Positions 3,801-38,070 of a DNA stretch of 64,000 nt are shown here, in pieces. Source of the stretch: Stenomitos frigidus ULC18. GTDB lineage: Bacteria; Cyanobacteriota; Cyanobacteriia; Leptolyngbyales; Leptolyngbyaceae. The first letter of the stretch is position 1; each line of letters starts with the position of its first letter. Below the pieces are notes generated by a model, which had not been told where the DNA came from, searched no databases, and saw only the letters and a program-made list of their open reading frames with translations. The stretch spans positions 1 to 64,000 of the forward strand of contig NZ_PVWK01000142.1 of assembly GCF_003003795.1 (NCBI RefSeq), in the 5' to 3' direction. The translations under genes were made by a program, and so were the position numbers.

Positions 3801-4848
3801 CCTCTGGGGCACCGACAACATCAAGACCTACGGCGAATCGCTGGCGCAGATCTACTGGATGCTCGGTGTAGCTCCGTTGCCCGACTCGCTGGGACGGATG
3901 AACAAGCTGGAACTAATTCCCCTGGAGGAACTCGGTCGTCCCCGTATCGACGTGGTGGTCAACTGTTCTGGCGTGTTCCGCGATCTGTTCATTAACCAGA
4001 TGGCACTCCTCGATCGCGCCGTGAAGATGGCAGCCGAGGCTGATGAGCCGCTAGAAATGAACTTCGTCCGCAAGCACGCGCTGAAGCAATCCGAAGAAAT
4101 GGGCATCAACCTCCGGCAGGCTGCTACCCGCGTCTTCTCCAATGCGTCCGGTTCCTACTCGTCCAACATCAACCTGGCGGTGGAAAACAGCACCTGGGAA
4201 ACCGAAGCCGAACTTCAGGATATGTACCTGGCACGGAAATCCTTCGCCTTCTCGTCGGATAACCCCGGCACGATGGCGCAAGACCGCCAGATCTTCGAGT
4301 CTGCCCTTAAGACGGCGGATGTCACCTTCCAAAACCTGGACTCATCCGAAATCTCGCTGACGGATGTTTCCCACTACTACGACTCCGACCCCACCAAGGT
4401 CGTGTCTCGTCTGCGGAACGACGGCAAAGCGCCAACATCCTTCATCGCCGACACCACGACTGCTAACGCCCAGGTTCGCACCCTCTCCGAAACCGTCCGT
4501 CTGGATGCCCGTACCAAATTGCTCAACCCCAAATGGTACGAAGGGATGCTGAGTCACGGCTATGAAGGCGTGCGCGAACTATCGAAGCGGTTGGTCAACA
4601 CGATGGGCTGGTCGGCAACGGCAGGCGCAGTGGATAATTGGGTCTACGAAGATGCCAACGAGACGTTCTTCAAGGATGAGGACATGTCCAAGCGCTTGCT
4701 CGACCTCAACCCCAGCTCGTACCGCAAGATGGTGACGACGTTGCTCGAAGCGAACGGTCGCGGCTATTGGGAAACCACTGAGGAGAACCTCGATCGCCTC
4801 CGCGAACTCTATCAAGAAGTCGAAGACCGCATTGAAGGGATTGAGTAA
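862..4848 (+). CDS. chlH: Magnesium chelatase subunit H
   Basis: This is the large porphyrin-binding subunit of the ATP-dependent magnesium chelatase, which inserts Mg2+ into protoporphyrin IX with ChlI and ChlD at the first committed step of chlorophyll synthesis. The 1328-aa length matches the family. The N-terminal domain (about 1-170) starts with the expected [14 protein letters not shown] stretch, and the CobN/ChlH core holds the conserved block [18 protein letters not shown] at about residues 614-631. The start is fixed by AAGGAG ten bases before the ATG. A terminator follows at once, so the gene is probably transcribed alone. ChlH is the GUN5 orthologue and is activated by GUN4; a GUN4-domain protein lies at 36.1 kb. 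Confidence 0.97.
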
Positions 4849-21461: not shown

Positions 21462-22703
21462 ATGCCCTTGCGTCTGCTGAAATTTGGTTTTTCTAACAAG
21501 TACCCGGAACCCCGGATGTTTCGGCAACCCGATCGCCTCAAGTCGAGCTATGACGCGGTGATCATCGGTGCGGGTGGGCATGGACTTGCCGCAGCCTACT
21601 ATCTGGCGCGCGATCATGGGATGCATAACGTTGCCGTACTGGAAAAAGGCTACATCGGTGGTGGCAATACGGGGCGCAACACGACGATCATTCGCTCCAA
21701 CTACCTTACACCTGAAGGCGTAAAGTTCTACGATGAATCGGTGCGTCTCTGGCAGGACTTAGCGCAGGATTTCGACCTGAATTTATTTTATTCCACACGG
21801 GGACACTTTACGCTGGCACATACCGATGCCTCGGTGCGAACCATGCGCTGGCGATCGGAGGTCAACAAGCACTTTGGCATTGATAGCGAACTGGTCGATG
21901 CCGATGCCGTGCAAGAAGCCTGTCCACACATGGATATTACCTGTGGTGGACAGGCTCCCATTCTAGGCGCACTCTATCATGCGCCGGGAAGCATTGCTCG
22001 TCATGATGCAGTGGCTTGGGGCTATGGGCGTGGAGCCGATCAACGCGGTGTGGAAATCCATCAACAAACAGAGGTCTTAGGCATCACTGTGGAATCTGGT
22101 CGAGTGACAGGTGTGGAAACGTCACGGGGTAAGATTTCTACGTCACGAGTGTTATGCGCGGTGGCTGGATCAACCCCCCGGTTGCTGGACATGGTGGGGC
22201 TGCGATCGCCTCTCTACATCCATCCCCTGCAAGCAATGGTCAGCGAACCAATGAAAGCATGGCTTGATCCCATCATTGTTTCGGGTAGTCTCCATGTCTA
22301 CGTCAGCCAAACGGCGCGGGGAGAACTGGTGATGGGTGCGTCGCTTGACCCCTATGAATTGCATTCCACCCGATCAACTCTCGATTTTGTGGAAGGCTTA
22401 GCGGCTCACATGCTGGAACTCTTTCCCTTCCTGTCGCACGTCAAGGTAGTGCGGCAATGGGCGGGTATGGCAGACATGACTCCAGACTTTGCGCCCATTA
22501 TGGGAAAAACCGCGATCGACGGCTTCTATCTCGACTCTGGTTGGGGCACCTGGGGTTTCAAAGCAACCCCTGTTGCCGGTAAGACGATGGCCTCTACGGT
22601 AGCGAACGATCGCAATCATGAGTTGATTGAGGACTTTTCCCTCGATCGCTTCGCTAACTATGCCCTGGTTGGTGAAAAGGGTGCAGCATCGGTAGGACAT
22701 TGA
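21462..22703 (+). CDS. mgdA: N-methylglutamate dehydrogenase subunit A (sarcosine oxidase beta-like)
   Basis: An FAD-binding subunit of the heterotetrameric sarcosine oxidase family, which oxidises N-methyl groups of amino acids. The 413-aa protein has the Rossmann motif DAVIIGAGGHGLAAAYYLAR, the second FAD segment LEKGYIGGGNTGRNTTIIRS with the region that carries the covalent flavin in the family, and the C-terminal GFYLDSGWGTWGFKATPVAG. The neighbours gmaS and mgsABC make N-methylglutamate the more likely substrate than sarcosine. The name mgdA therefore rests on context. Two unrelated small genes separate it from mgdB. Confidence 0.85.
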   Translation: MPLRLLKFGFSNKYPEPRMFRQPDRLKSSYDAVIIGAGGHGLAAAYYLARDHGMHNVAVLEKGYIGGGNTGRNTTIIRSNYLTPEGVKFYDESVRLWQDLAQDFDLNLFYSTRGHFTLAHTDASVRTMRWRSEVNKHFGIDSELVDADAVQEACPHMDITCGGQAPILGALYHAPGSIARHDAVAWGYGRGADQRGVEIHQQTEVLGITVESGRVTGVETSRGKISTSRVLCAVAGSTPRLLDMVGLRSPLYIHPLQAMVSEPMKAWLDPIIVSGSLHVYVSQTARGELVMGASLDPYELHSTRSTLDFVEGLAAHMLELFPFLSHVKVVRQWAGMADMTPDFAPIMGKTAIDGFYLDSGWGTWGFKATPVAGKTMASTVANDRNHELIEDFSLDRFANYALVGEKGAASVGH

Positions 22704-22745
22704 TTGGGGGAGTGGGGAGTGGGGAGTCGGAATTGAGGAGGGTTT

Positions 22746-23048
22746 ATGGTGCTTGAGGTGGCGATGTTGATGGTCAAAAGTGGTCTGGAGCAGGCGTTTG
22801 AAACCTCGTTCCGGCAAGCATCTTTCTTGATAGCATCCATGCCGGGGTATGACTCTCATGAACTCCATCAATGCCTTGAAGTGCCCGGAAAATATTTACT
22901 GTTGGTGCGATGGCAGGCATTGGAAGATCATACGATTGGCTTTCGGGAATCACCCACTTATCAAAAATGGAAACAGCTTCTCCATCACTTTTATGAACCT
23001 TTTCCAGTGGTCGAGCATTTTACAGAAGTCCTTAGTTGGAAGCGGTAG
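22746..23048 (+). CDS. Antibiotic biosynthesis monooxygenase (ABM) domain protein
   Basis: A 100-aa single-domain protein of the dimeric alpha-beta barrel (ABM) superfamily: hydrophobic strand VLEVAMLMVKSG, helix FETSFRQASFLIAS, strand YDSHELHQC, then YLLLVRWQALEDH and the typical FRESPTYQKWKQLLHHFYEP. Members range from cofactor-free monooxygenases to haem-degrading enzymes and enzymes of no known activity. It is preceded by a low-complexity G-rich stretch and followed by a phosphatase-like gene; both interrupt the usual mgdA-mgdB order. Confidence 0.8.
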   Translation: MVLEVAMLMVKSGLEQAFETSFRQASFLIASMPGYDSHELHQCLEVPGKYLLLVRWQALEDHTIGFRESPTYQKWKQLLHHFYEPFPVVEHFTEVLSWKR

Positions 23049-23081
23049 GGGTGAAGGATTCCGGTAAATGTGATGGAGCTT

Positions 23082-23411
23082 ATGAAGAAATTGCTCTTTG
23101 TGTGCGGCAAAAATCATCTACGTAGCCCGACCGCTGAAATGCTTTTCTCGCGCTATGAGGGTTTAGAGGTTGCATCGGCAGGAATCGATCGGGATGCAGA
23201 CACACCACTATCTAACGAAGCAATCCAATGGGCAGATATTATCTTTGTGATGGAGAACGTACACCGAAGTAAGCTCTCAAAAAAGTTTCAGCGTCATCTC
23301 AATGGTAAACGAATCGTTTGTTTGGATATTCGTGATGAGTATGAGTATATGGAACCAGCTTTGGTAGAACTCCTTGAGAGAAAAGTATTGCCGCTGTTAG
23401 GCACCTTTTAG
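23082..23411 (+). CDS. Low-molecular-weight protein tyrosine phosphatase-like protein
   Basis: A 109-aa short member of the LMW-PTP superfamily. The phosphate-binding loop is VCGKNHLRSPTAE, fitting C-x5-R-S, so the nucleophile Cys and the Arg are kept. The late general-acid region is DIRDEYEYM, with Asp in place of the usual DP motif. It is shorter than the classical 150-residue enzymes. ATG 23082 places the strand KKLLFVC at the N-terminus as in the family; an upstream frame extends to 23070. Substrate unknown; its presence inside the mgd genes looks accidental. Confidence 0.8.
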   Translation: MKKLLFVCGKNHLRSPTAEMLFSRYEGLEVASAGIDRDADTPLSNEAIQWADIIFVMENVHRSKLSKKFQRHLNGKRIVCLDIRDEYEYMEPALVELLERKVLPLLGTF

Positions 23412-23444
23412 CATTGAGAAAAACGACCTGTGATGGATGGGATG

Positions 23445-23708
23445 AGCATGAAATTAATGGTGTGTCCAATTAACGGTACTCGACCGCTTTCTGAATTTGT
23501 GTATGGCGGCGAAGTACGTCCCATGCCCGATCCACAGTCATTAGATGATGCAATGTGGGCAGATTATGTGTTTAACCGTAATGGTGCCGCAGGTGTGAAG
23601 CAAGAATGGTGGTGCCATACGCCGAGCAATACCTGGTTTTTGGTCGATCGCAATACCCTAACCGATGAAATTCTTCGCACCTATTTGTTCAGTGAGGATG
23701 CAGCATGA
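23445..23708 (+). CDS. mgdB: N-methylglutamate dehydrogenase subunit B (sarcosine oxidase delta-like)
   Basis: The small subunit of the heterotetramer. The core reads MVCPINGTRPLSEFVYGGEV, then ADYVFNRNGAAGVKQEWWCH and FLVDRNTLTDEIL, which is the layout of SoxD-type delta subunits (about 90 residues). SoxD of true sarcosine oxidases binds zinc through a CxxC pair plus His and Cys; here the second Cys of the pair is Asn (CPIN), while WWCH is kept. ATG 23445 or 23430 could be the start. It overlaps mgdC by four bases (ATGA), so the subunits are coupled. Confidence 0.85.
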   Translation, partial: SMKLMVCPINGTRPLSEFVYGGEVRPMPDPQSLDDAMWADYVFNRNGAAGVKQEWWCHTPSNTWFLVDRNTLTDEILRTYLFSEDAA

Positions 23709-26700
23709 GTCAACGACTGCCACCGCTACCGGGCGAATGGATCGATCGCACTCAGCCGATCGACTTCACGTTTGAAGGCACAACCTTTCGAGGCTACGCA
23801 GGCGATACCATCAGTAGCGCGTTGTGGGCAGCGGGTCAGCACATTTTGGGACGTAGCTTCAAATATCATCGTCCACGTGGGCTGTTGAGCTTTGCCAATC
23901 ACGACATCAACACGCTGATGCAAGCTGGTCAGGTGCTGAATGTTCGAGCAGATGTCACGCCGTTAGAAGCGGGAATGGCGCTCACCGCCATTAATACGGT
24001 GGGTGGCGTGATGGGCGATCGTGCCAGCGTCCTCAACTTCTTTTCACCCTTTCTGCCCGTTGGTTTCTACTACAAAGCCTTTTTAGATCGAAAACTCTTC
24101 CCTTTTTGGGAACGCCTGATTCGCCGCATGACTGGGTTAGGCGAAGGCGATCCATCAACGCCCCACATTCGCACACCCAAACGCTACGACTTTTGTGATG
24201 TGTTGGTAATTGGTGCGGGTGTTTCCGGACTGGCAGCGGCTCTGGCAGCAGCGAATGCAGGCGCAGATGTGGTCGTTGTTGATGAGAATGCGAAAGCTGG
24301 TGGGTCGGGCAGTTATCAATTGGGCGGTGATGGTTCTCTCGCCGAGAAAACCAATGAATTGCTGGCGGCGATCGCCACCCATCCCACTATTCGCCTCTAC
24401 ACGGGAACACAGGCAGCAAGCTATTACGCCGATCACTGGATTCCCCTGGTCGATCGCGATCGGCTCTCCAAAATGCGGGCCAAGGCAGTCATTGTTGCCA
24501 GCGGTGCTTATGAACAGCCAGCCGTTTTTCACAACAATGACCTTCCGGGTGTGATGCTGGCATCGGCTGCTCAACGGCTTATCTATCGCTATGCGGTGAA
24601 ACCCATGCAACGGGCAGTCGTTTTGGTGGCGAATAGTGATGGGTATCGAGCGGCATTGGATCTGGCGGCGCATGGGGTGATTGTGATGGCGATCGTCGAT
24701 CTGCGCCCCACTCCGGTAGTAACGGAGCTCACGCAAAGGGCGCGATCGCAGAACATTCCCATCTTTACAGGACATTGCATCTACGAAGCAAAGGGAAATC
24801 CAGCAGGCGATGGCATTTCCAGTGTGGTGATTTGTCCCTTGGATAGAAATGGTGAGCCGCTCATTGGACAGAAACGAACGATCGCCTGTGATGGCATTGC
24901 CATGAGTGTGGGTTGGGCACCGACCGCAAATTTGCTGTATCAAGCGGGTGCCAAAATGCGTTTTGATGACCACTTGCAGCAGTTTGTGCCAGATGTGTTG
25001 CCTGCGGGCGTTTTTGCCTGTGGTCGAGTCAATGGCATCTTTCAGTTTGAGCCGAAAAGGCTGGATGGCGATCGCGCTGGGATGGCAGCAGCAGCTTATC
25101 TAGATTTTGAAAACTCACACACCCACAATTCGGTATACGAGGGACTAGAGCCGAAGCAAGCAGCACCTTTCGGGGGGCGTGGGGGAGTTAGGCCCCCACA
25201 TGGCGGGGGCACGGGGGGAAGTCCCCCGGTCAGGACTGCAAACGCAGCCCAGATATTTATACACAGCAGTTCGTTCAGGAGTGAGAGTGTTTCTCATCCC
25301 TGGCCGATCGTCCCCCATCCACACGGCAAAAACTTTGTGGATTTTGACGAGGATCTGCAACTCAAAGACTTCTACAATGCTGCACAGGAAGGATTTGACA
25401 ACATTGAACTCCTCAAGCGCTACACCACGGTAGGGATGGGACCCAGCCAGGGTAAGCATTCCAACATGAATGCTCTACGAATTCTGGCACGCATTACGGG
25501 TAAAACTCCTGGAGCAGTGGGTACAACAACCGCACGACCGTTTTTCCATCCGGTGCCTCTGTCTCATCTAGCAGGGCGTGGGTTTACACCAGAGCGTCAA
25601 ACACCGCTGCATAGTTGCCATGCTGCATTGAACGCAACATTCATGCTGGCGGGGAACTGGCGGCGACCCGAATACTACGCTCAATCGGGAAAAAGCCGTG
25701 AGGAATGCATTGGGGCGGAAGCGATCGCTGTTCGTACTCAGGTCGGCATCATCGACGTGGGCACCTTGGGCAAGCTGGAAATCCGGGGTGCTGATGCGGC
25801 TGCATTTCTGGAGCGCGTCTACACCGGACGCTACGCCAATCTGAAAGTCGGGATGTCTCGCTATGCCCTGATGTTGGATGAAACGGGTGTCATTGTGGAT
25901 GATGGCGTGATTGCTCGCTTTGAAGCCGAGCATTTCTACTTCACGACAACGACATCCGGTGCAGCGAATATTTATCGCGAACTGTCGCGACTCAATACGA
26001 TGTGGCGCTTAGACTGCGGCATTGTGAACACAACAGGGGCACGATCGGCCATCAATCTAGCAGGCCCTTACGCCCGTGAAGTGCTTGCCAAACTCACCGA
26101 TCTGGATTTGTCCAGTAGCGCCTTCCCCTACCTTGGTGTGCGTCAGGCAACTGTGGCTGGCATTCCCGCTTTACTCCTACGCGTTGGTTTTGTGGGTGAA
26201 TGGGGCTATGAAATTCACGTCCCGGCAGACTCCGCGCTCGCGCTCTGGGATGCTCTGCTAGAAGCGGGTGCAGACTACGGTATTACCCCCTTTGGCGTCG
26301 AAGCGCAGCGGCTGTTGCGATTGGAGAAAGGGCACCTGATTGTTGGGCAGGATACCGACGGTTTGACCACTCCGCGAGAGGCTGGTTTGGGATGGGCTGT
26401 CAAACTGGATAAGCCATTTTTCATTGGTCAACGGAGTTTGCAAAGTATGGCAAAACGTCCGGTCAAACACACGTTGGTGGGCTTTATGCTGGAGCCATTT
26501 CAAGGGGTGCCGCCCCAAGAGTGTCATTTAGTGATCGATCGCGATGAGATTGCGGGTCGTGTCACCAGTATTGCCTACAGCCCCTCACTGCAACGGTTTA
26601 TTGGGTTGGCATACGTGAGAACAGAGTTAGCAACGATGGGCGATCGCATCTCCATTCGCCGCTCCGATGCTTCCTTTGTCACTGCAACCATCAGTCCTAC

Positions 26701-26770
26701 ACCGTTCTACGATCCTGAAAACCTCCGCCAGAAAGAATCCATTCCCAAACGTGAGGAGGTTGCGGTATGA
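23705..26770 (+). CDS. mgdC: N-methylglutamate dehydrogenase subunit C (sarcosine oxidase alpha-like)
   Basis: The large subunit, 1021 residues. Residues 8-90 are a plant-ferredoxin-like domain without cluster Cys (GDTISSALWAAGQ); 165-460 a pyridine-nucleotide-disulfide type FAD/NAD domain (VLVIGAGVSGLAAALAAANA); the C-terminal half (about 640-1000) a GcvT-type aminomethyltransferase that passes the methyl carbon to tetrahydrofolate (GFVGEWGYEIHVPADSA, GVEAQRLLRLEKGHLIVGQ). Between the halves, at about residues 480-530, lies a Gly/Pro-rich stretch (GGRGGVRPPHGGGTGG) coded by a hairpin repeat; I do not expect it in homologues. The frame stays open. It overlaps mgdB and mgdD by four bases each. 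Confidence 0.9.
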   Translation: MSQRLPPLPGEWIDRTQPIDFTFEGTTFRGYAGDTISSALWAAGQHILGRSFKYHRPRGLLSFANHDINTLMQAGQVLNVRADVTPLEAGMALTAINTVGGVMGDRASVLNFFSPFLPVGFYYKAFLDRKLFPFWERLIRRMTGLGEGDPSTPHIRTPKRYDFCDVLVIGAGVSGLAAALAAANAGADVVVVDENAKAGGSGSYQLGGDGSLAEKTNELLAAIATHPTIRLYTGTQAASYYADHWIPLVDRDRLSKMRAKAVIVASGAYEQPAVFHNNDLPGVMLASAAQRLIYRYAVKPMQRAVVLVANSDGYRAALDLAAHGVIVMAIVDLRPTPVVTELTQRARSQNIPIFTGHCIYEAKGNPAGDGISSVVICPLDRNGEPLIGQKRTIACDGIAMSVGWAPTANLLYQAGAKMRFDDHLQQFVPDVLPAGVFACGRVNGIFQFEPKRLDGDRAGMAAAAYLDFENSHTHNSVYEGLEPKQAAPFGGRGGVRPPHGGGTGGSPPVRTANAAQIFIHSSSFRSESVSHPWPIVPHPHGKNFVDFDEDLQLKDFYNAAQEGFDNIELLKRYTTVGMGPSQGKHSNMNALRILARITGKTPGAVGTTTARPFFHPVPLSHLAGRGFTPERQTPLHSCHAALNATFMLAGNWRRPEYYAQSGKSREECIGAEAIAVRTQVGIIDVGTLGKLEIRGADAAAFLERVYTGRYANLKVGMSRYALMLDETGVIVDDGVIARFEAEHFYFTTTTSGAANIYRELSRLNTMWRLDCGIVNTTGARSAINLAGPYAREVLAKLTDLDLSSSAFPYLGVRQATVAGIPALLLRVGFVGEWGYEIHVPADSALALWDALLEAGADYGITPFGVEAQRLLRLEKGHLIVGQDTDGLTTPREAGLGWAVKLDKPFFIGQRSLQSMAKRPVKHTLVGFMLEPFQGVPPQECHLVIDRDEIAGRVTSIAYSPSLQRFIGLAYVRTELATMGDRISIRRSDASFVTATISPTPFYDPENLRQKESIPKREEVAV
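25152..25290 (+). repeat. G-rich palindromic repeat inserted in frame in mgdC
   Basis: The segment holds consecutive hairpins: GTGGGGG (25179-25185) with CCCCCAC (25193-25199), and CGGGGG (25212-25217) with CCCCCG (25223-25228). Its composition differs from the rest of mgdC and recalls the GC-rich repeats at 48.3 and 51.9 kb. It encodes a Gly/Pro/Ser-rich linker at the boundary between the FAD and folate domains. Ends are approximate. Confidence 0.6.
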
Positions 26771-27438
26771 AGACACGTCGCGTGAGTCCAGTGCATGATG
26801 TACTCCAATCTCTTGATGGATCGTGGCGTGATGTGAATAAAATGCCATCGTTGGTGACAATGCCGAATGACGCTGCGATCGCTTCCCGTTTAGGTATTGC
26901 CGATGTCTCCTGCCTGACTCGCTTCGGAGTCAAAGGAGCCAATGCAGCCGCTTGGTTATTAAATGAAGGCATCACAACACCCGATCGACCCAATACCTGG
27001 AGTCCGCTTCCCGACGGTGGCATCATTGCTCGTCTTGGTTTAACAGAATTTTTGATCGAAGACAGTTTGCACAGCCACATTGCACCACAATTGGCGGAAG
27101 CTTGTCAGCAACCACCCGCCAAAGTCTATCCCGTCTTGCGTCAGGATGCCGCGATCGTCCTTTGTGGCTCAGCGGTCAACGAACTACTGCTGCAAACCTG
27201 TAGCGTTAACTTTTGCGCTTTATCATTACTGGAGCGTCCCGTTATCCTCACCTCAATGGTGGGGGTCGCTGTGATTATTATTCCGGGGGAACGCAATGGA
27301 CAACCCTTCTATCGCCTCTGGTGTGATGGTACTTTTGGAGCATATCTGTGGCGGACGTTGGTGGCGATCGTAGAAGAGTTAGGTGGGGGGATTGTCGGCT
27401 TGGAGACAGTGATGAGGGATAAAAGTTTTGAGTTTTGA
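26767..27438 (+). CDS. mgdD: N-methylglutamate dehydrogenase subunit D (sarcosine oxidase gamma-like)
   Basis: The gamma subunit of the heterotetrameric oxidase family, 223 residues, with a shortened GcvT-like fold. Recognisable points are IADVSCLTRFGVKGANAAAW, the middle RLGLTEFLIED, and the C-terminal FYRLWCDGTFGAYLWRTL. It overlaps mgdC by four bases, so all four subunits would be made in step. SoxG-type proteins vary strongly, so the assignment leans partly on position. After it comes a 183-base spacer with low-complexity repeats before gmaS. Confidence 0.85.
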   Translation: MKTRRVSPVHDVLQSLDGSWRDVNKMPSLVTMPNDAAIASRLGIADVSCLTRFGVKGANAAAWLLNEGITTPDRPNTWSPLPDGGIIARLGLTEFLIEDSLHSHIAPQLAEACQQPPAKVYPVLRQDAAIVLCGSAVNELLLQTCSVNFCALSLLERPVILTSMVGVAVIIIPGERNGQPFYRLWCDGTFGAYLWRTLVAIVEELGGGIVGLETVMRDKSFEF

Positions 27439-27621
27439 GTAGCGCTAGCTCCGAAGGAGCCACTTTGTGTTTCTTGTATGCCGAAGGCTTTACGCGCCGA
27501 CAAGCTAGAGAGTTCTGAGTTAATTCAAATCTCTTTACTTCCCCACTCCTCCGCCTCTCCTGCTCCTATCTTCTAACAACCAACAACTAACAACCAACAA
27601 CCATTTTCAAGGCATCCATCT
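27439..27621. repeat. Spacer with CAACAA-type low-complexity repeats
   Basis: The right part consists of runs of AACAACCAACAACTAACAAC-like units just before gmaS, and CT-rich runs before them. Such arrays appear again before mgsA and are typical simple repeats of cyanobacterial spacers. No promoter was identified, so gmaS may be read from upstream. Confidence 0.6.
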
Positions 27622-28950
27622 ATGACTCCAGAAACAGCAAAGAAATTTCTAGCAGACAATCACGTCAAATTCGTCCTGGCGCAGTTCGTAGATATGCACG
27701 GCACTGCCAAAACGAAAGCCGTACCTGCCTCGCACTTTGACGACATTCTCGATCCGGGCGCAGGCTTTGCGGGCTTTGCCGTTTGGGGTCTGGCGCAACA
27801 GCCTAACAGCCATGATTTCATGGCGATCGGTGATCCATCAACCTTGAGCCTGGTGCCCTGGATGCCAGGGTTTGCCCGCATGGTTTGCGTTGGGCACGTG
27901 GATGGACAGCCCTATCCTTACGATGCTCGGTTCGTGCTGATGCAGCAGTTGGAACGGCTGAAGCAAAAAGGCTGGACGTTCTATACCGGGCTGGAACCTG
28001 AATTTAGCTTGCTGCGAAAAGATGCTCAAGGCCACATTGCTCCCGCTGATCCGACCGATACGTTGGAAAAACCCTGCTACGACTACAAAGGACTGTCTCG
28101 CAGTCGCGCGTTTATTGAAAAATTGGTGGAAAGCCTGCAAATTGCTGGCTTTGACGTGTATCAAATTGACCACGAAGATGCAAACGGTCAGTTCGAAATC
28201 AATTACACCTATACGGATTGCTTAACCTCCGCCGATCGCTACATCTTCTTCAAAATGGCAGCGTCTGAAATTGCCAAAGAGATGGGGCTGATTGCCACCT
28301 TCATGCCCAAGCCTTTTGCTAACCGCACGGGTACCGGGATGCACATGCACATGTCCATGTCGGATGGCACATCCAACATTTTTGCGGATGACAGCGATCC
28401 TCGCCATTTGGGACTGTCCAAACTGGCGTATCACTTCCTTGGTGGCTTGCTGGCTCATGCGCCTGCACTGACTGCGATCTGTGCGCCTTCCATCAACTCC
28501 TACAAACGACTGGTGGTGGGACGAGCGCTCAGTGGTGCCACCTGGGCACCTGCCTACATCACTTACGGTGACAACAATCGCTCCAGCCTGGTGCGCATTC
28601 CAGGGGGACGACTCGAATTCCGCCTTGCCGATGGTTCCTGCAATCCTTACCTAGCCGCCGCTGTCGCGATCGCTGCTGGACTGGACGGCATCGAAAATGA
28701 ACTTGATCCGGGCGACCCCCACAACATCAACCTCTACGATCTCTCCGAAGCCGACCTCAAGGACAAAGGCATTCAAACCTTGCCGCAAAGTCTGAAAGAA
28801 GCGATCGACGCCCTCGAAGCCGATACCGTGCTCACCAATGCCCTCGGCCCTCTCGCCACCGAATTCATCAGTCTCAAGCGCATGGAATGGGTCGAATACA
28901 TGCGCCATGTCTCGGACTGGGAAGTGCAGCGCTATTTGGAGTTTTTCTAA
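27622..28950 (+). CDS. gmaS: Gamma-glutamylmethylamide synthetase (glutamine synthetase type III-like)
   Basis: GmaS joins methylamine to the gamma-carboxyl of glutamate with ATP, the entry step of the N-methylglutamate pathway. The 442-aa protein is of the GlnT/GS-III-like group: N-terminal beta-grasp with [20 protein letters not shown], the metal-binding Glu in [11 protein letters not shown] and [10 protein letters not shown], the ATP/glutamate block [14 protein letters not shown], and the C-terminal [18 protein letters not shown]. Ordinary glutamine synthetase (GlnA) or GlnT activity is the alternative; the co-located mgsABC and mgdABCD favour GmaS. Highly expressed-looking codon use without rare features. 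Confidence 0.88.
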
Positions 28951-28962
28951 GCGGCTTGTTTA

Positions 28963-29125
28963 GTTGTTAGTTGGTAGTGGTTGGTTGTTAGAAGTCAGGA
29001 GTCAGAAGCCAGGAGAAAAAGCAATGACTACTCACTACCAACTAATGCCACTGACCACTAACCATCCTTGCAATTCAACACTCAACACTTCTTTAACTAA
29101 AAACTAACCACTACCAACTAACAAC
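28963..29125. repeat. Spacer bounded by a 19-bp inverted repeat
   Basis: GTTGTTAGTTGGTAGTGGT (28963-28981) and its exact complement (29107-29125) enclose low-complexity sequence in the gmaS-mgsA spacer. The arms are themselves simple-repeat-like. The transcript could form a long stem that ends six bases before the mgsA start codon and could affect its translation. Confidence 0.65.
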
Positions 29126-29130
29126 CATCT

Positions 29131-30039
29131 ATGTGTGGCATCGTCGGCTTACTCATCAAAAATCCATCACTGCGATCGTCACTCGGTGAACTGATGGTGC
29201 CCATGCTCATTGGCATGAGCCAACGCGGTCCCGATTCTGCCGGACTCGCCGTCTTTACTGAAGCGCTGCCAGATAATCAGCGCAAATACAGCCTCTACTC
29301 TGGCAGTATCCCTGCGGGTGATCACTTCCACTGGTCAGAACTGGCGCAGACCTTTCAAACCCATTTCAATACGGCTCCCGATCTCCAAATTCACGAGAAT
29401 CAAGCCGTGCTGACCGCGAACCTGGCTCCCAGTGCCGTCAAGCAATGGCTACAAGACCACTATCCACACATCCATCTCTTGTCTATCGGACGGGCGATCG
29501 ACCTGTACAAAGATGCCGGTAGTCCGACTAGCATTGCCGATCGCTATCACTTCAAAGACCTGCAAGGCTCCCATCTCGTCGGGCATACCCGCATGGCAAC
29601 CGAATCTGCCGTCACGCCTGCCCACGCCCATCCCTTTACGGCCGGCGAAGATTTCTGCCTCGTCCACAATGGCTCTCTTTCCAATCCCTACGAAATTCGC
29701 CGCAAGCTTGAACATCACGGCATTCACTTTGAAACCGACAACGATACCGAAGCCGCCTGCCGCTTTCTCGAATGGCGGATGCAGGAAGGTGATGATTTGA
29801 AAGCAGCCATTCAGAAAGGCTTTGAAGCGCTTGATGGTTTCTATACCTTTCTCATGGGCACAGCAGATAAGTTGGCGTTGGTGCGTGATGCCTTTGCCTG
29901 CAAGCCTGCTGTGGTCGCAGAGACGGATGATTACGTGGCGATCGCCTCCGAATTTCGCTCGCTCGCTCATCTTCCCAACATTAATCATGCTCACATCTAT
30001 GAACCCGCACCCGAGGAAATGTACGTATGGACGGTGTAA
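29131..30039 (+). CDS. mgsA: N-methylglutamate synthase subunit A, class II glutamine amidotransferase
   Basis: A 302-aa protein equal to the amidotransferase domain of glutamate synthase, here a separate subunit. It begins MCGIVGLL, so Cys2 becomes the N-terminal nucleophile, and has the family motifs MSQRGPDSAG, GHTRMATESAV and VHNGSLSNPYEIR. In MgsABC this subunit works on gamma-glutamylmethylamide and releases the methylamine for transfer to 2-oxoglutarate. The gene overlaps mgsB by 13 bases. GlxB-type amidotransferases of unknown function are close relatives, but the neighbouring gmaS makes the Mgs role most likely. Confidence 0.87.
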   Translation: MCGIVGLLIKNPSLRSSLGELMVPMLIGMSQRGPDSAGLAVFTEALPDNQRKYSLYSGSIPAGDHFHWSELAQTFQTHFNTAPDLQIHENQAVLTANLAPSAVKQWLQDHYPHIHLLSIGRAIDLYKDAGSPTSIADRYHFKDLQGSHLVGHTRMATESAVTPAHAHPFTAGEDFCLVHNGSLSNPYEIRRKLEHHGIHFETDNDTEAACRFLEWRMQEGDDLKAAIQKGFEALDGFYTFLMGTADKLALVRDAFACKPAVVAETDDYVAIASEFRSLAHLPNINHAHIYEPAPEEMYVWTV

Positions 30040-30707
30040 CCTTCGACCTCGCCCAAACGCCCCTGCGCGAAGTCAACCGCTTTCTCCATCAACCATTAAG
30101 CGGTCAAACCATCCGCATTCTGAATGCTGACGGTGCTCACAACATCGCGGTCGGTTTAGATTCGCCTGTAGAAGTCGAAATTGCGGGGCATGCGGGCTAT
30201 TACGCGGCTGGCATGAACCAACTGGCAAACGTCACCATTCTCGGTAATGCCGGCCCCGGTGTTGCCGAAAACATGATGTCAGGACGAGTCCACGTCAAAG
30301 GCTTTGCTTCCGTTGCTGCTGGAGCGTCTGCCCAGGGCGGCTTACTGGTAATCGATGGCGATGCTAGTCTGCGCTGTGGTATTTCCCTCAAAGGAGCCGA
30401 TATTGTGGTGGGTGGCAGCGTCGGCAGCTTCTCTGCGTTCATGGCACAAGCCGGACGAATCGTGATTTGCGGCAACGCAGGCGATGCCCTCGGCGATTCT
30501 CTCTACGAAGCCATCATCTACGTACGCGGCACCATCAAATCACTCGGTGCCGATGCCCAAATTGAGCCTATGACCGATGCTGATTACGAAGCCGTGGGCG
30601 AACTTCTCGCCAAAGCCGGTTTTTCTCACGATGCAAAAGAATTCAAACGCATTGCCTCTGCCAAGCAGCTTTATCACTGGAACGCCGATGCCAATCAGGA
30701 GTATTAA
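30027..30707 (+). CDS. mgsB: N-methylglutamate synthase subunit B, GXGXG domain
   Basis: A 226-aa beta-helix protein corresponding to the C-terminal GXGXG domain of the glutamate synthase large subunit. Repeating Gly-rich turns are seen: ILGNAGPGVAENMMSGRVHV, GGLLVIDGDASLRCGISLKG and IVICGNAGDALGDSLYEA. In glutamate synthase this helix is a structural spacer between catalytic domains; in MgsABC it is a separate subunit. Its ATG lies inside the end of mgsA, so the pair is translationally coupled. It is not contiguous with mgsC: a repeat and a small antitoxin-like gene intervene. Confidence 0.87.
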   Translation: MDGVTFDLAQTPLREVNRFLHQPLSGQTIRILNADGAHNIAVGLDSPVEVEIAGHAGYYAAGMNQLANVTILGNAGPGVAENMMSGRVHVKGFASVAAGASAQGGLLVIDGDASLRCGISLKGADIVVGGSVGSFSAFMAQAGRIVICGNAGDALGDSLYEAIIYVRGTIKSLGADAQIEPMTDADYEAVGELLAKAGFSHDAKEFKRIASAKQLYHWNADANQEY

Positions 30708-30771
30708 GTATCTTCATTCTGATGCGATCGCATTCGCTAGGATAGAGCAAGCGCCTGCTATAAATGATCAA

Positions 30772-30871
30772 ACACATTTTGGGTTTACGCAAACCTCGGA
30801 GGTTTTAACCAAACATTGAACTCTATGACCAGCTTTAGTGCTTAAACCTCCGAGGTTTTGGCAAAATGTGT
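30772..30871. repeat. Nested inverted repeat with AAACCTCSGAGGTTT arms
   Basis: Inner arms AAACCTCGGAGGTTT (30791-30805) and AAACCTCCGAGGTTT (30844-30858) are exact complements, and outer arms ACACATTTTG (30772-30781) and CAAAATGTGT (30862-30871) are too. Each inner arm is itself nearly palindromic. A related element sits at 37420-37450. It lies in the mgsB-mgsC spacer. Confidence 0.8.
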
Positions 30872-30909
30872 AAATCCTAACATTGAGAGACGATGAAGAG
30901 TGAGGCTAG

Positions 30910-31185
30910 ATGGAATCGATTATTAAAACTATTATCACCAAGTTAAATTCCTTGCCTCAAACGAAGTTACATGAAGTGTTGGACTTTGTTGAATTTGTCA
31001 CTTGGCAAGAACAGCACACAGCACAATCTAGCCTCAGCAATCTAGATACGACCATGAGAGATCAAGACTTTGAAACTCTCACAAATCAACTTTTAGATGA
31101 ATTCGACAAATGTGTTGACCCCAATCTGCCTTTGCTATCAGACTATGCAGTGAGCCGCGCAGGGATTTATGAGGAGCACCCCTAA
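30910..31185 (+). CDS. DUF2281-like orphan antitoxin
   Basis: A 91-aa protein whose N-terminus (ESIIKTIITKLNSLPQTKLH, EVLDFVEFVTWQ) follows the DUF2281 pattern of short antitoxins, with an acidic C-terminal tail that would wrap a toxin. Such genes are normally followed at once by a PIN or RelE toxin. Here only a 13-codon frame follows and then mgsC, so the partner is missing. It splits the mgs genes and probably arrived with the adjacent repeat. The function may be limited to regulation or it may be a remnant. Confidence 0.65.
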   Translation: MESIIKTIITKLNSLPQTKLHEVLDFVEFVTWQEQHTAQSSLSNLDTTMRDQDFETLTNQLLDEFDKCVDPNLPLLSDYAVSRAGIYEEHP

Positions 31186-31253
31186 ACAGTGAACTACTTT
31201 ATCCTGCTACGTTTTGCCGATCGCTCCTAGCCACTTCACACGACTGTAAGAAC

Positions 31254-32609
31254 ATGAACGACGCTCAATCGCATCAATCCATTTCTCGTGAAGCATCCTG
31301 GGGCTACGACAGCCGCATGATTAGCTACATTCAAAATGCAGCGGCGCATGGTCTTTACGAAATTCGTGGGCTAGGTGCCAAGCGGCGCTTGCCCCACTTT
31401 GATGATTTGGTGTTTTTGGGTTCCTCTCTCTCGCGGTACCCGCTGGAAGGCTATCGCGAAAAATGCACAACCAAAACCGTTCTGGGGACTCGGTACGCCA
31501 CTAAACCCATTGAGTTGGAGATTCCCATCACGATCGCAGGCATGAGTTTCGGCTCTCTCTCTGCCAATGTCAAAGAAGCATTAGGACTTGCTGCAACTGC
31601 TGTGGGCACCTCGACCACCACGGGCGATGGCGGCATGACATCCGAAGAACGGCTTTCCTCCAAAACCTTGATCTATCAGTGCTTACCATCCCGCTACGGG
31701 TTCAATCCTGATGATGTGCGCAAGGCAGACGCGATCGAAATTGTCATTGGGCAGGGCGCAAAACCGGGCGGTGGTGGCATGCTGCTGGGGCAAAAAATTA
31801 ATCCTCGCGTGGCACAAATGCGCACCTTACCCGAAGGCGTCGATCAACGCTCTGCCTGCCGCCATCCTGATTGGACAGGCCCCGATGACCTCACTATCAA
31901 AATTCAAGAGTTGCGGGAACTCACCGATTGGGAAAAGCCCATCTATGTGAAAGTGGGAGCCTCGCGTACCTTCAATGATGTCAAGCTGGCGGTGCATTCC
32001 GGTGCGGATGTGATTGTCGTTGATGGGATGCAGGGCGGCACCGCGGCAACCCAAAGTATCTTTATCGAACACGTCGGCATTCCCACGCTGGCAGCGGTGC
32101 GTCAGGCAGTGGATGCCCTCGAAGATCTGGATATGAAAGGCAACGTGCAGCTCATTGTATCCGGTGGTATTCGCACCGGAGCGGATGTGGCAAAAGCGAT
32201 CGCGATGGGTGCCGATGCCGTCTCGATCGGACAAGGCATTCTCATTGCGTTGGGCTGCAATAGCGAAACCTACATCCAGCAGGGCGAACATCACTCGGCT
32301 ATTGAGGATTATGCGGCGATCGGCACCGCTCCCGGTTTCTGCCATCATTGTCACACTGGAAAATGTCCCGTGGGTGTCACTACTCAAGACGCCCTGTTGG
32401 AAAAGCGTTTGGAACCTGAGGTCGGTGCGCGTCGGGTCGAAAACTATCTCAAAACGTTGAATATGGAACTGACGACGATCGCGCGCGCCTGCGGCAAGCA
32501 AAATATCCATCATTTGGAGCGGGAAGATCTCGTTGCCCTTACTGTTGAAGCGGCGGCAATGGCACGTTTACCGCTTGCCGGAACGCCCTGGATTCCCGGT
32601 TGGCAGTGA
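31254..32609 (+). CDS. mgsC: N-methylglutamate synthase subunit C, FMN glutamate-synthase-like
   Basis: The catalytic subunit, 451 residues, corresponding to the central FMN domain of glutamate synthase. It binds FMN and an Fe-S cluster and reduces the imine formed from 2-oxoglutarate and methylamine. Motifs: PITIAGMSFGSLSANVKEAL, QGAKPGGGGMLLG, the FMN-phosphate stretch VSGGIRTGADVAKAIAMGAD and the Cys cluster GFCHHCHTGKCPVGV. Together with the separate MgsA and MgsB it rebuilds a full glutamate synthase layout. GlxD-type relatives exist, but with gmaS and mgd genes next to it the Mgs assignment is preferred. Confidence 0.9.
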   Translation: MNDAQSHQSISREASWGYDSRMISYIQNAAAHGLYEIRGLGAKRRLPHFDDLVFLGSSLSRYPLEGYREKCTTKTVLGTRYATKPIELEIPITIAGMSFGSLSANVKEALGLAATAVGTSTTTGDGGMTSEERLSSKTLIYQCLPSRYGFNPDDVRKADAIEIVIGQGAKPGGGGMLLGQKINPRVAQMRTLPEGVDQRSACRHPDWTGPDDLTIKIQELRELTDWEKPIYVKVGASRTFNDVKLAVHSGADVIVVDGMQGGTAATQSIFIEHVGIPTLAAVRQAVDALEDLDMKGNVQLIVSGGIRTGADVAKAIAMGADAVSIGQGILIALGCNSETYIQQGEHHSAIEDYAAIGTAPGFCHHCHTGKCPVGVTTQDALLEKRLEPEVGARRVENYLKTLNMELTTIARACGKQNIHHLEREDLVALTVEAAAMARLPLAGTPWIPGWQ

Positions 32610-35245: not shown

Positions 35246-35611
35246 TTAAGTAGATTCTGTATCAGCCTGGAATTTCTTGATGATGGCGCGGATCTCGTCA
35301 ACGGTCACGTCATCTTGGTCAGATTTGGAGTAGAGGCGGAGTAGGACAACGACATCAGGGGCAAGGCTCTGGTAGATGACGCGATAGCCGCCACTTTTGC
35401 CTTTGCGGATGGCGCTGTTTTTAACACGGACTTTGTAGACGATGTAGTCTGCGAAACCAGGGATGTGATCGCCAGGGAGGTCGCCGTTTTGCAGTTGTTC
35501 GATCAAGGGTTGCAGGTCAAGTTCGATGCTGCGATAGCGTTTTTTGAGGGCGCGGGCTTCACGTTTGAATTCAGCAGTTGTTAAAACCTGCGTGAATGCG
35601 GGTTCAGGCAT
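35246..35611 (-). CDS. RelE/ParE-superfamily toxin
   Basis: A 121-aa protein of the RelE/ParE fold: an N-terminal helix (TTAEFKREARALKKRYRSIE), then basic strands YKVRVKNSAIRKGKSGGYRV and IYQSLAPDVVVLLRLYSKSD. Such toxins cut mRNA on the ribosome or poison gyrase. The second gene of the pair, it overlaps its antitoxin by eight bases, which supports co-regulation. The C-terminal tail is longer than in minimal RelE. The target cannot be told from sequence alone. Confidence 0.85.
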   Translation of the reverse strand: MPEPAFTQVLTTAEFKREARALKKRYRSIELDLQPLIEQLQNGDLPGDHIPGFADYIVYKVRVKNSAIRKGKSGGYRVIYQSLAPDVVVLLRLYSKSDQDDVTVDEIRAIIKKFQADTEST

Positions 35612-35843
35612 CGCTGTCGTCGTCCCACAGGGTTTCGACGGGGCTGATGCGCCCTGCTTTTACGTCTTCGAGAGCGCGGTAGAGCCCAGCTAGGACTTCG
35701 GCTTTGGGGGTATCGTCGGGATCGAGGACTACGATTTGCTGGAGGGCTTGGAGGATGAAGGTTTCGAGAGGGAGGTTGAGTTGGGTGGCTTGCTTAATAA
35801 GGCTGGCTTGGAGGTCGTGGGGAAGGTCGATCGTGATTTGCAT
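35604..35843 (-). CDS. Antitoxin of the RelE-type pair
   Basis: A 79-aa protein beginning MQITIDLPHDLQASLIKQAT, a ribbon-helix-helix-like N-terminus followed by helix NLPLETFILQALQQIV and an acidic tail ending in WDDDSDA that would bind the toxin. ATG 35843 is preferred because GGAG lies about eight bases upstream and the residues encoded before it look non-coding. The gene precedes its toxin by an eight-base overlap. Confidence 0.82.
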   Translation of the reverse strand: MQITIDLPHDLQASLIKQATQLNLPLETFILQALQQIVVLDPDDTPKAEVLAGLYRALEDVKAGRISPVETLWDDDSDA

Positions 35844-36151
35844 AACATAAGCTCCGTAATTTGATTCTTTGCTGAGTTTGTAGGATAGCCAACCTTGATC
35901 ACGCAATACCGCACGTTTTGTTCAACGTCTTCCACGTCGTAGTGAGTGTAGGTACTACGAGATCTATTCTCGCGCAGGGGATGAGAGCCGCAAGCGATCG
36001 CCTCAACAAATTTGCCTTATTACCCAGGGCGATCGCACGCACTATTCTTCCTGCTGTGAATGCCCACTCAGGGCGTTTCCGTTAACCTGTGGCGGAAGAC
36101 TATAATCGACTCAGCAAGCCTGATCAAGATTGTTTCCTCGCCCGTCTCCCA

Positions 36152-37309
36152 ATGCCGAATGATACTGTCGAAATCTTTATCTCATACTCGAAGCAAGACA
36201 AAGAGTTGCGTGACGGGTTGCTGTCTCACCTGCGTCCGCTCGAACGGGAAGGCATTATTACCTGGCACGATCGCCAAATTTTGCCCGGTACAGAGTGGGA
36301 TGACGAGATTAGAGCGCGTCTGAATGCCGCAGACATTATTTTGCTGTTGCTCAGCGCTGACTTTTTAGCCACCGACTACTGCACGCAAGTTGAGATCCCG
36401 GAGGCACTGCGACGGCATCAGACCAACGACGCGATCGTGATGCCAGTGATCTTGCGGCATTGCGGTTGGCAATACACTCCTCTGGCAGCAATCCAGGCTT
36501 ATCCCGAAAAGGCAAAGCCGATTAAAAGCTGGAGCGATATTGATGAAGCCTATACGAATGTGGTGGATGGTGTTTACCTGGCAGCAACCGAGATTAAAAA
36601 ACGACGCAATCAGCAACAGCAGGCGGAAGAACAACAGGGGCAGCGATTGCTTGCTCAAAGAGAAGCGGAGGAAAAGACAGAATGGGAACGGCTTCAACGG
36701 GAACAGCAACGAATGACGGAATGGTTGAATCGGGAAGCCGAAATAGTAAAACAACAGAAGCAGGAATTAGAACAGCAACGGCTATTGAAGCAGCAACGAG
36801 CCCAAAGAAAGAGACAGGCTGCTCAAACTGAAAGTACCGATAAGCTAGCCTCTGAAAGAGGGATAGACTACACCCGACTGCAAGACTTGCTGAAGGCAGG
36901 GCAGTGGAAAGAGGCAGACAAGGAAACGGCAGACAGGATGTGCGAAGTAATGGGTCGGCAAAAGGAACGTTGGTTAAGAGTGGAAGATATACAAAACTTT
37001 CCCTCTGCTGACCTGCATACGATTGATCAACTGTGGGTAAAGCACAGCCAGGGCAGGTTTGGGTTCAGTGTGCAGAAAAAAATCTGGCAGGCATGCGGTA
37101 GTCCAACCGAGTACGATCGGAACTGGGAAAAGTTTGGCGAAGCCGTTGAATGGAAGAAAAAAGTTCTGTGGATAAAATACAGCGAAGTTACTTTTGATAC
37201 CTCAGCCCCAAATGGTCATCTACCTTATCTGGGGGTGGGTCGGGTGGGGGAGGCTGGGTTCATTGGTATGGTGTGGTGGGTTTCTCTTCTCTCGTGTCGA
37301 GACTTGTAA
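36152..37309 (+). CDS. TIR - coiled coil - GUN4 fusion protein
   Basis: A 385-aa three-part protein. Residues 1-140 are a TIR-fold domain (VEIFISYSKQDKELRDGLL, ILLLLSADFLATDYC, followed by the conserved Glu in TQVEIPEAL). Residues 145-245 are a Gln/Glu/Arg-rich coiled coil (QQQQAEEQQGQRLLAQREA). Residues 255-385 are a GUN4 domain (LQDLLKAGQWKEADKETADR, IDQLWVKHSQGRFGFSVQKK, GHLPYLG). TIR domains cleave NAD or assemble signalling complexes; GUN4 binds Mg-porphyrins and stimulates Mg-chelatase. The fusion could sense tetrapyrroles. ATG 36152 starts the TIR fold; GTG 36089 would add unrelated residues. Confidence 0.9.
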   Translation: MPNDTVEIFISYSKQDKELRDGLLSHLRPLEREGIITWHDRQILPGTEWDDEIRARLNAADIILLLLSADFLATDYCTQVEIPEALRRHQTNDAIVMPVILRHCGWQYTPLAAIQAYPEKAKPIKSWSDIDEAYTNVVDGVYLAATEIKKRRNQQQQAEEQQGQRLLAQREAEEKTEWERLQREQQRMTEWLNREAEIVKQQKQELEQQRLLKQQRAQRKRQAAQTESTDKLASERGIDYTRLQDLLKAGQWKEADKETADRMCEVMGRQKERWLRVEDIQNFPSADLHTIDQLWVKHSQGRFGFSVQKKIWQACGSPTEYDRNWEKFGEAVEWKKKVLWIKYSEVTFDTSAPNGHLPYLGVGRVGEAGFIGMVWWVSLLSCRDL

Positions 37310-37419
37310 AGTCTAGCATTGAGTATTTTCAGGGCTTTCTAAAACTTTGCTACAGCTAGGTAGATCTATGAGGAATCGGCGTTTCCATGTTTTGTGACCT
37401 GGCATCGTTTGTCTTCCAA

Positions 37420-37450
37420 GACCTCCGAGGTTTTGAAAACCTCGGAGGTC
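37420..37450. repeat. Perfect 15-bp palindromic hairpin, ACCTCSGAGGT family
   Basis: A 31-base palindrome centred on one G (arms 37420-37434 and 37436-37450, outer end GACCTCCGAGGTTTT). The same GACCTC/AACCTC core occurs in the 30.8-kb repeat. It lies 14 bases before the stop codon of the VapC-like gene that runs leftward toward it, so it may serve as a terminator for that gene and for the TIR-GUN4 gene. Confidence 0.8.
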
Positions 37451-37463
37451 TAAATCCAAGTCT

Positions 37464-37862
37464 TTATGGATTGAAGGGGTTAACAATGCTCAATCCGTTG
37501 ATTTGCTGGAAATCTTGAGTGTTGCGTGTGACCAGAGTGCTTGTCGTTTCCAACGCACACGCTGCAATGAGGGCATCGGGTAAGGCAGTTCGATCAGCTC
37601 GACGAATTTGGGCAGTTCGATCCAGAATGCTTTCTGTCAGAGCGATACAGGTTAGCGATCGCAAAAATGCGCGAATTTGCTCTGCCTCTGCTTCTGTTAA
37701 TGCTGGGTAGCACAGCAGTTCGACCCAACTCACAGGACAATAGAACCCTGCCGCCTTTCCAGTCAGAATGTCTTCTACAACTGGCTGAACAACTGGATCA
37801 CCGTTGAAGTAATAGATGAAGATATTCGTGTCGAGTAGATACCGTCTATCGGTTCCATTCAT
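37464..37862 (-). CDS. vapC: PIN-domain toxin, VapC type
   Basis: A 132-aa PIN-fold ribonuclease. Acidic active-site residues are visible: Asp in RYLLDTNIFIYYF, Glu in SWVELLCYP, Asp in RTALPDALIAACAL and Asp in VTRNTQDFQQI. VapC toxins cut tRNA or rRNA. It is the second gene of the pair and its start overlaps the end of the antitoxin gene by 17 bases. The order antitoxin then toxin is usual. Confidence 0.9.
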   Translation of the reverse strand: MNGTDRRYLLDTNIFIYYFNGDPVVQPVVEDILTGKAAGFYCPVSWVELLCYPALTEAEAEQIRAFLRSLTCIALTESILDRTAQIRRADRTALPDALIAACALETTSTLVTRNTQDFQQINGLSIVNPFNP

Positions 37863-38070
37863 CTCTCAACTGCCGTTGAAACTGGAGTGGGTCAATGCGT
37901 CGAGGCAAAAAGCCAAAGAGGTTGCTTGATGGTACTGTTTCAAAATCAGTCTGTGGCATTGATTGCACTACGACAACCATCTCAACGAGACCTGGCTGAA
38001 TGATATCCGGTAAGGTAATTTCTACCTTGCGATCGCCCTTGACCTCAATTACTTGACGAATGGTTTCCAT
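37846..38070 (-). CDS. vapB: Antitoxin of the PIN-domain pair
   Basis: A 74-aa protein: N-terminal strand-rich part (METIRQVIEVKGDRKVEITL) and an acidic/aromatic C-terminus (FGFLPRRIDPLQFQRQLRDEW) fitting a toxin-binding tail. The VapB name rests on its position overlapping a PIN toxin; the family of the DNA-binding part is not clear, since it does not look like a classic AbrB or RHH domain. Confidence 0.75.
   Translation of the reverse strand: METIRQVIEVKGDRKVEITLPDIIQPGLVEMVVVVQSMPQTDFETVPSSNLFGFLPRRIDPLQFQRQLRDEWNR

Follow-up and report, generated by a model that had tools for sequence, protein, structure and literature searches.

A TIR-GUN4 protein of Stenomitos frigidus with a hypervariable loop next to a conserved 3' DNA element, a possible diversified sensor on a TIR effector

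Bacteria are known to vary proteins in a targeted manner by means of diversity-generating retroelements (DGRs), which copy a template. Like the locus described here, the DGRs of cyanobacteria and multicellular bacteria (PMC7517822, PMC10907252) combine targeted variation of the 3' end with conserved DNA downstream, and their targets likewise carry kinases, caspases, TIR or NACHT at the N-terminus. GUN4 domains joined in one polypeptide with kinases, caspases, trypsin or TIR have also been reported, with regulation by tetrapyrrole levels proposed (Kaur et al. 2020, PMC7159879), so that neither the fusion architecture nor the idea of a tetrapyrrole sensor is new. The TIR-GUN4 and other GUN4 fusions known from conflict systems in cyanobacteria (PMC7159879; Kaur et al. 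2021, PMC8195603) have the same architecture as our protein and led to the same guess of a sensor on an effector; tetrapyrrole sensing is assumed there, and the accessible portions of both reports describe no hypervariable segment or 3' element. A search of the open-access literature likewise returned no description of a hypervariable GUN4 segment with a 3' element.

The window, which is the whole stretch of DNA analysed (64,000 nt), encodes such a fusion, and the protein, its domains and the DNA at its 3' end are as follows.

36152..37309, + strand: TIR - coiled coil - GUN4 protein, 385 aa (ORF, Pfam, AlphaFold2 model)
36173..36496, + strand: TIR domain, residues 8-115 (Pfam TIR_2 PF13676, E=1.9e-15; TIR structures at Z 12-16)
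36539..36823, + strand: coiled coil, residues 130-224, about 95 residues (one long helix in the model; E/Q/R-rich sequence)
36851..37225, + strand: GUN4 core, residues 234-358, with GHLP at its end (PF05419; superposition on 4xkb)
37226..37282, + strand: hypervariable segment, 57 nt, residues 359-377 (YLGVGRVGEAGFIGMVWWV), at the place of the porphyrin loop
37283..37318, + strand: conserved block 1 of the 3' DNA element, encoding the tail SLLSCRDL and the stop codon (found by pattern)
37283..37410, + strand: whole 3' DNA element, 128 bp, with the distal block TGACCTGGCATC at 37395-37406

The reading frame starts with the ATG at 36152 and ends with the stop codon at 37307-37309; a GTG at 36089 was rejected as the start because homologues share the Met start at 36152. 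That one protein combines TIR with a long coiled coil and GUN4, as the preliminary description had proposed, is borne out both by Pfam and by the AlphaFold2 model (mean pLDDT 80.6, with values below 50 at residues 362-370). The fold expected of enzymatic TIR domains is present, as seen in the PF13676 match and in the structure matches, in which the TIR part of the model matched the plant RPS4 TIR with Z 16. The glutamate of enzymatic TIR domains is present as well: E81, within YCxxVE, is conserved in every TIR-bearing row of our alignment A1, and we take it to be equivalent to SARM1 E642, the catalytic glutamate in helix C. At the other end of the protein, Pfam matches GUN4 over residues 234-361 (E=5e-47) within a whole GUN4 domain of residues 234-385, and this part superimposes on porphyrin-bound Synechocystis GUN4 (4xkb) with Z 22.4 and an rmsd of 1.3 over 142 residues, which identifies the fold of canonical GUN4. 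It is one of nine GUN4 matches in the host genome, where the canonical gun4 lies on a separate contig (C91) and the other scanned matches are joined to caspase or NACHT, or are shorter.

The fusion had originally been read as a tetrapyrrole-gated effector, in which GUN4 would bind Mg-protoporphyrin or another tetrapyrrole, switch the TIR domain and report the photosynthetic state or chlorophyll damage. An alignment of 30 canonical GUN4 domains, 46 paralogue domains and the Synechocystis structure sequence revealed the LxNxLR loop motif (Asn211, Leu213 and Arg214 of Synechocystis GUN4) directly after GHLP in 30/30 canonical GUN4s and in 0/46 paralogues; the window protein is among the latter and thus lacks the porphyrin/bilin loop motif. 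In addition, nearly all paralogues have another residue in place of Phe196, mostly Leu, Val or Ile, and the window protein has Val. Porphyrin binding depends in part on Phe196 and Arg214, in Synechocystis numbering (PMC8967248), and the equivalent of Asn211 is needed for binding bilin but not porphyrin, as known from the N219G variant of Chlamydomonas GUN4 (PMC10156173). Because this variant, with Gly at position 211, keeps porphyrin while losing bilin, paralogues could still bind porphyrin, and a gate would also fit the retained fold (rmsd 1.3 to a porphyrin-bound structure) and has already been suggested (Kaur et al. 2020, PMC7159879). Nevertheless, the loss of LxNxLR together with the replacement of Phe196 makes a tetrapyrrole ligand common to the paralogues unlikely, as judged from the sequences, and a ligand-closing loop that is unrelated in nearly every paralogue fits badly with one common ligand. 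The tetrapyrrole gate is weakened accordingly by the absence of the loop motif from every paralogue examined and by the hypervariable segment found in its stead, and we regard it as improbable. Neither that segment nor the DNA element following it was recognised in the preliminary description. The proposed link to ChlH did not gain support either: Pfam confirms ChlH at 862-4848, but 31 kb away.

Comparison of paralogue C-termini showed three alternative tails, SLLSRRDL, LFSRVETCKL and SSLASRLVNCNI, which are the product of one DNA sequence, TCTCTTCTCTCGCGTCGAGACTTGTAAACTGTAACATATAA, translated in three reading frames with a stop of its own in each. The block 1 pattern, allowing up to 2 mismatches, was searched for in 388 cyanobacterial genomes of the class and located the element in 114 of them (about 30%), whereas the control, the same pattern read backwards, was present in none of them. 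Part of the conservation of block 1 stems from its having been found by pattern; the search did not select for the frames, the variable segment, the spacer, the distal block or the association with GUN4. Among 130 distinct copies, 115 have a GUN4 ORF that is open into block 1, with frame usage of 43/37/35, and the remaining ones are GUN4 genes closed by a stop or shift (5), weak GUN4 remnants (4), copies without GUN4 (3) and chance matches (3). The element is therefore found almost solely behind GUN4 genes, and 0/30 canonical GUN4 loci carry the block. A second block, TTACCTGGCACC, is located at exactly 112-113 nt in 50 of the 115 copies, and in the window the distal block TGACCTGGCATC begins exactly 112 nt from the start of the element. 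The effectors on GUN4s of the element type comprise TIR, SEFIR, caspase, kinase, NACHT and AAA_35; element genes annotated as AAA-like or WD40 were rejected as exceptions, since their proteins also end in GUN4. A conserved RNA structure was rejected as well (none by RNAalifold and no match in Rfam). The exact pattern was absent from IMG/VR and no carrier was found in phage records, and a plasmid match beside the avd gene of Anabaena sp. 90 turned out to be a dispersed Nostocales repeat and not the element.

Between the GHLP codons and the element lies the hypervariable segment, which ranges from 22 to 168 nt (median 57) in the 100 genes whose left border is clear, with lengths modulo 3 of 39/31/30. 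Its composition (G.40, T.32, A.16, C.12; in the window A 7, C 7, G 54 and T 32%) is nearly equal across codon positions and unlike that of the 3' flank, in contrast with the GUN4 core, which is codon-periodic with.295 A, and its dinucleotide and run statistics are near memoryless. About 100 stops per frame are expected from this composition; 77 and 100 were counted in the unused frames and 0 in the used one, the zero following from the definition of the open set. In a pair test with 78 pairs from 33 genes, which are not independent of each other, at core identities of at least 0.78 (flanks about 78-93%), identity was.82 in the core,.76 at third codon positions,.85 in the last 57 nt before the segment,.93 in block 1 and.78 in the noncoding spacer, compared to.393 in the variable segment and.385 after shuffling. 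The segment was at chance identity in 77 of the 78 pairs and of unequal length in 77 of the 78, and the sole pair with a shared segment had a core identity of.98. Identity drops from 1.0 to about 0.25 in a single base step at the left border, which is the third position of the Pro codon, and is back at 1.0 at the right border, so that both borders are defined to within one or two nucleotides. L186 and L187, which lie in tandem in the same genome, share a core at.92 identity, yet their segments differ, and element-free paralogues, in contrast to the element carriers, keep similar tails in close pairs. No template or silent copy of the segment was found in the host genome. Silent cassettes as a source were rejected on the same ground and also by comparison among genes, where shared segments were at chance except for one orthologous and one weaker pair. 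A few segments (L167, L205, L245) start by repeating the last residues of the core, e.g. SPMGHLPSPMGHLP; such left-border duplications, seen by eye in few genes, were not above the control.

Could these data be explained with no generator at all, as a poorly constrained, mutation-prone, G-rich gene end followed by a regulatory or terminator sequence? Slippage is possible in G-rich runs, the loop has low model confidence and the element extends into the 3' untranslated region, all of which would suit such a gene end. The neutral yardsticks, however, at.76 (third positions) and.78 (spacer), are far above the.39 of the segment, which equals that of shuffled sequence, and such a gene end fits neither the base make-up, different from both core and 3' flank, nor the sharp borders. 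Furthermore, 115/120 GUN4-linked copies are open, against an expectation of roughly one third by chance, and this is the real sign of selection. We consider this explanation quite unlikely.

The gene is flanked by the following features.

35246-35611, - strand: RelE-type toxin (PF06296, E=1.3e-6)
35604-35906, - strand: small antitoxin-like ORF upstream of the RelE-type toxin, without Pfam match
37419..37452, no strand: palindrome gacctccgaggttttgaaaacctcggaggtc, dispersed in genomes of the genus, a bystander
37464..38070, - strand: PIN toxin (VapC-type) and small antitoxin-like ORF (PF01850, E=6.6e-13)

The neighbours had been described as RelE-type and VapBC pairs with a trypco1-like gene; Pfam confirmed the RelE-type toxin, the PIN (VapC-type) toxin and Trypco1, and gave no match for the two small antitoxin ORFs. 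The defence-like character of the setting was upheld, and the locus is a fast-swapping one, in which other species of the genus have different TIR, SEFIR or extra-domain versions. Leptolyngbya sp. FACHB-321 has the same site, with RelE-type toxin, TIR protein and VapC/VapB, and its DNA is 85-95% identical over the TIR and vapBC, the PIN toxin/antitoxin-like pair being a conserved border of the swapping locus, and less than 70% identical from about 36600, at the start of the coiled coil, to 37450. The FACHB-321 protein differs in coiled coil and GUN4 and has between them an extra domain of about 150 aa without Pfam match. At the same site a second species has a different TIR and two further species have a SEFIR, in each case combined with the extra domain and GUN4, so that over five species the site contains TIR-A, TIR-A with the extra domain, TIR-B or SEFIR versions. 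Some GUN4s without the element occupy the same locus in sister species, and elsewhere this TIR, at 85% identity, is fused to an FGE-sulfatase domain.

Several further observations were made around these loci. The palindrome gacctccgaggttttgaaaacctcggaggtc has many copies in G000, G084 and G142, and several GUN4 gene ends lie within 100-200 nt of it. Tandems of SEFIR-GUN4 and TIR-GUN4 occur in three genomes (L043 8671-11204, L047 7019-9842, L049 8011-11688), and in L049 about 1.1 kb splits the TIR-GUN4 gene. A NUDIX hydrolase with a small membrane protein (PADLOC PDC-M50A) recurs beside TIR/SEFIR genes as a candidate defence module (L040 8615-9800, L043 6307-8487, L048 6002-7073 and others), sometimes together with SEFIR-ThsB_TIR (PDC-M50B); this module of NUDIX, membrane protein and SEFIR-ThsB is found beside several TIR-GUN4 genes and is absent beside the window gene. 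Elsewhere in the window, at 21462-32609, an N-methylglutamate-pathway-like cluster was recognised by eye, unexpected for a cyanobacterium, with sarcosine-oxidase-like subunits and glutamine-synthetase-like, amidotransferase and glutamate-synthase-like proteins.

The GUN4 domains of the paralogues might instead be homotypic adaptors, similar to the EAD domains of ternary conflict systems, with the loops as tags for partner pairing. The SEFIR-GUN4/TIR-GUN4 tandems would be in line with this, as would the paired adaptor domains in neighbouring genes described by Kaur et al. (PMC7159879), but the SEFIR-GUN4 partners are without the element and have a conserved and different tail, and the window gene has no GUN4 neighbour, which leaves this role with little probability.

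Rewriting of the loop from a template repeat by a DGR acting in trans is very improbable: conflict-system sensors are indeed diversified by DGRs in multicellular bacteria (PMC10907252), the host genome has an RT at C59 with FGE-sulfatase targets, and a DGR RT is present more often where the element is (40/114 genomes) than where it is not (29/274). DGR replacement, however, preserves length and frame and alters template adenines, whereas the GUN4 segments are random in length and frame and vary in all bases; no template repeat was found in the host genome or by the within-genome comparison, in which segments are no closer (.426) than between genomes (.402); and the RT is missing from 74/114 element genomes, among them those of the two other species of the genus that carry the element. 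For this last reason the DGR RT was rejected as required machinery, and so was a Drt4-type RT, which is present in 23/388 genomes, 15 of the 23 with the element. The RT at C59 of the host genome is a typical DGR-like one between two FGE-sulfatase-type genes with variable-looking ends (L262, G000:C59), and the Drt4-type defence reverse transcriptase of this genome has 538 aa (L263, G000:C94).

Taken as a whole, these data are best read as a TIR effector bearing a diversified sensor loop, and we hold this reading to be rather probable. The GUN4 fold would serve as the scaffold of a sensor on a cytosolic TIR effector and would display a private loop, of 19 residues here, at the site of the porphyrin loop of canonical GUN4. 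As to the origin of the loop, we lean slightly towards a template-free, junction-like diversification of GUN4 sensor domains, with G/T-biased sequence of random length, a fixed site beside the 128-bp element and a private loop for each effector. The DNA between the GHLP codons and the element has been replaced by such sequence, presumably in a DNA-synthesis step anchored at the conserved element, and the pattern resembles random junctional addition with subsequent filtering for open frames. Since block 1 closes the protein in any frame with similar short tails, any insert length could be used. The model places the loop where the GUN4 fold has its ligand pocket, which makes a role in recognition the natural guess: it may bind a foreign protein, a phage product or another non-self cue, upon which the coiled coil would assemble the TIRs, and these would cleave NAD+ or make a nucleotide signal, with growth arrest or death as the putative immune outcome. 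The NUDIX and membrane-protein neighbours at related loci are compatible with a nucleotide signal. In other paralogues, SEFIR, caspase, kinase, NACHT or AAA_35 would replace TIR as the output of recognition.

Among known systems, the window TIR matches the Thoeris ThsB profile (PADLOC PDLC00420, E=3.6e-48) and is thus of the ThsB type, but it is fused to GUN4, and no ThsA partner was found among the Pfam-scanned neighbours of the gene. PADLOC matches to PD-T4-6 were rejected as evidence of defence, since they involve the GUN4 end of the model alone and every scanned GUN4 paralogue was matched. With canonical GUN4, the Mg-chelatase cofactor (1y6i, 4xkb, 7e2t), the protein has the fold in common, but neither LxNxLR nor the N-terminal helical bundle, and the GUN4 paralogues are probably scaffolds of private loops rather than chlorophyll sensors. 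Compared to DGRs, the system has no template, varies beyond adenines and in length and frame, lacks a DGR RT in most carriers and uses GUN4 as scaffold where DGR targets use a C-type lectin; if our reading is true, it would represent a second, non-DGR route to targeted variation with a different logic, in about 30% of the sampled cyanobacterial genomes, and receptor-like repertoires in bacteria would become directly testable, e.g. in culturable Nostocales. To our knowledge, V(D)J recombination and the GUN4 segment system have no machinery in common. They are nonetheless alike in the untemplated-looking random sequence, the random length, the fixed junction and the filter for open frames, and differ in that the segment described here is bacterial, biased towards G/T and not G/C, and bounded downstream by a border functional in three frames; it might thus be a bacterial counterpart, separate from DGRs, of the junctional diversity of antigen receptors.
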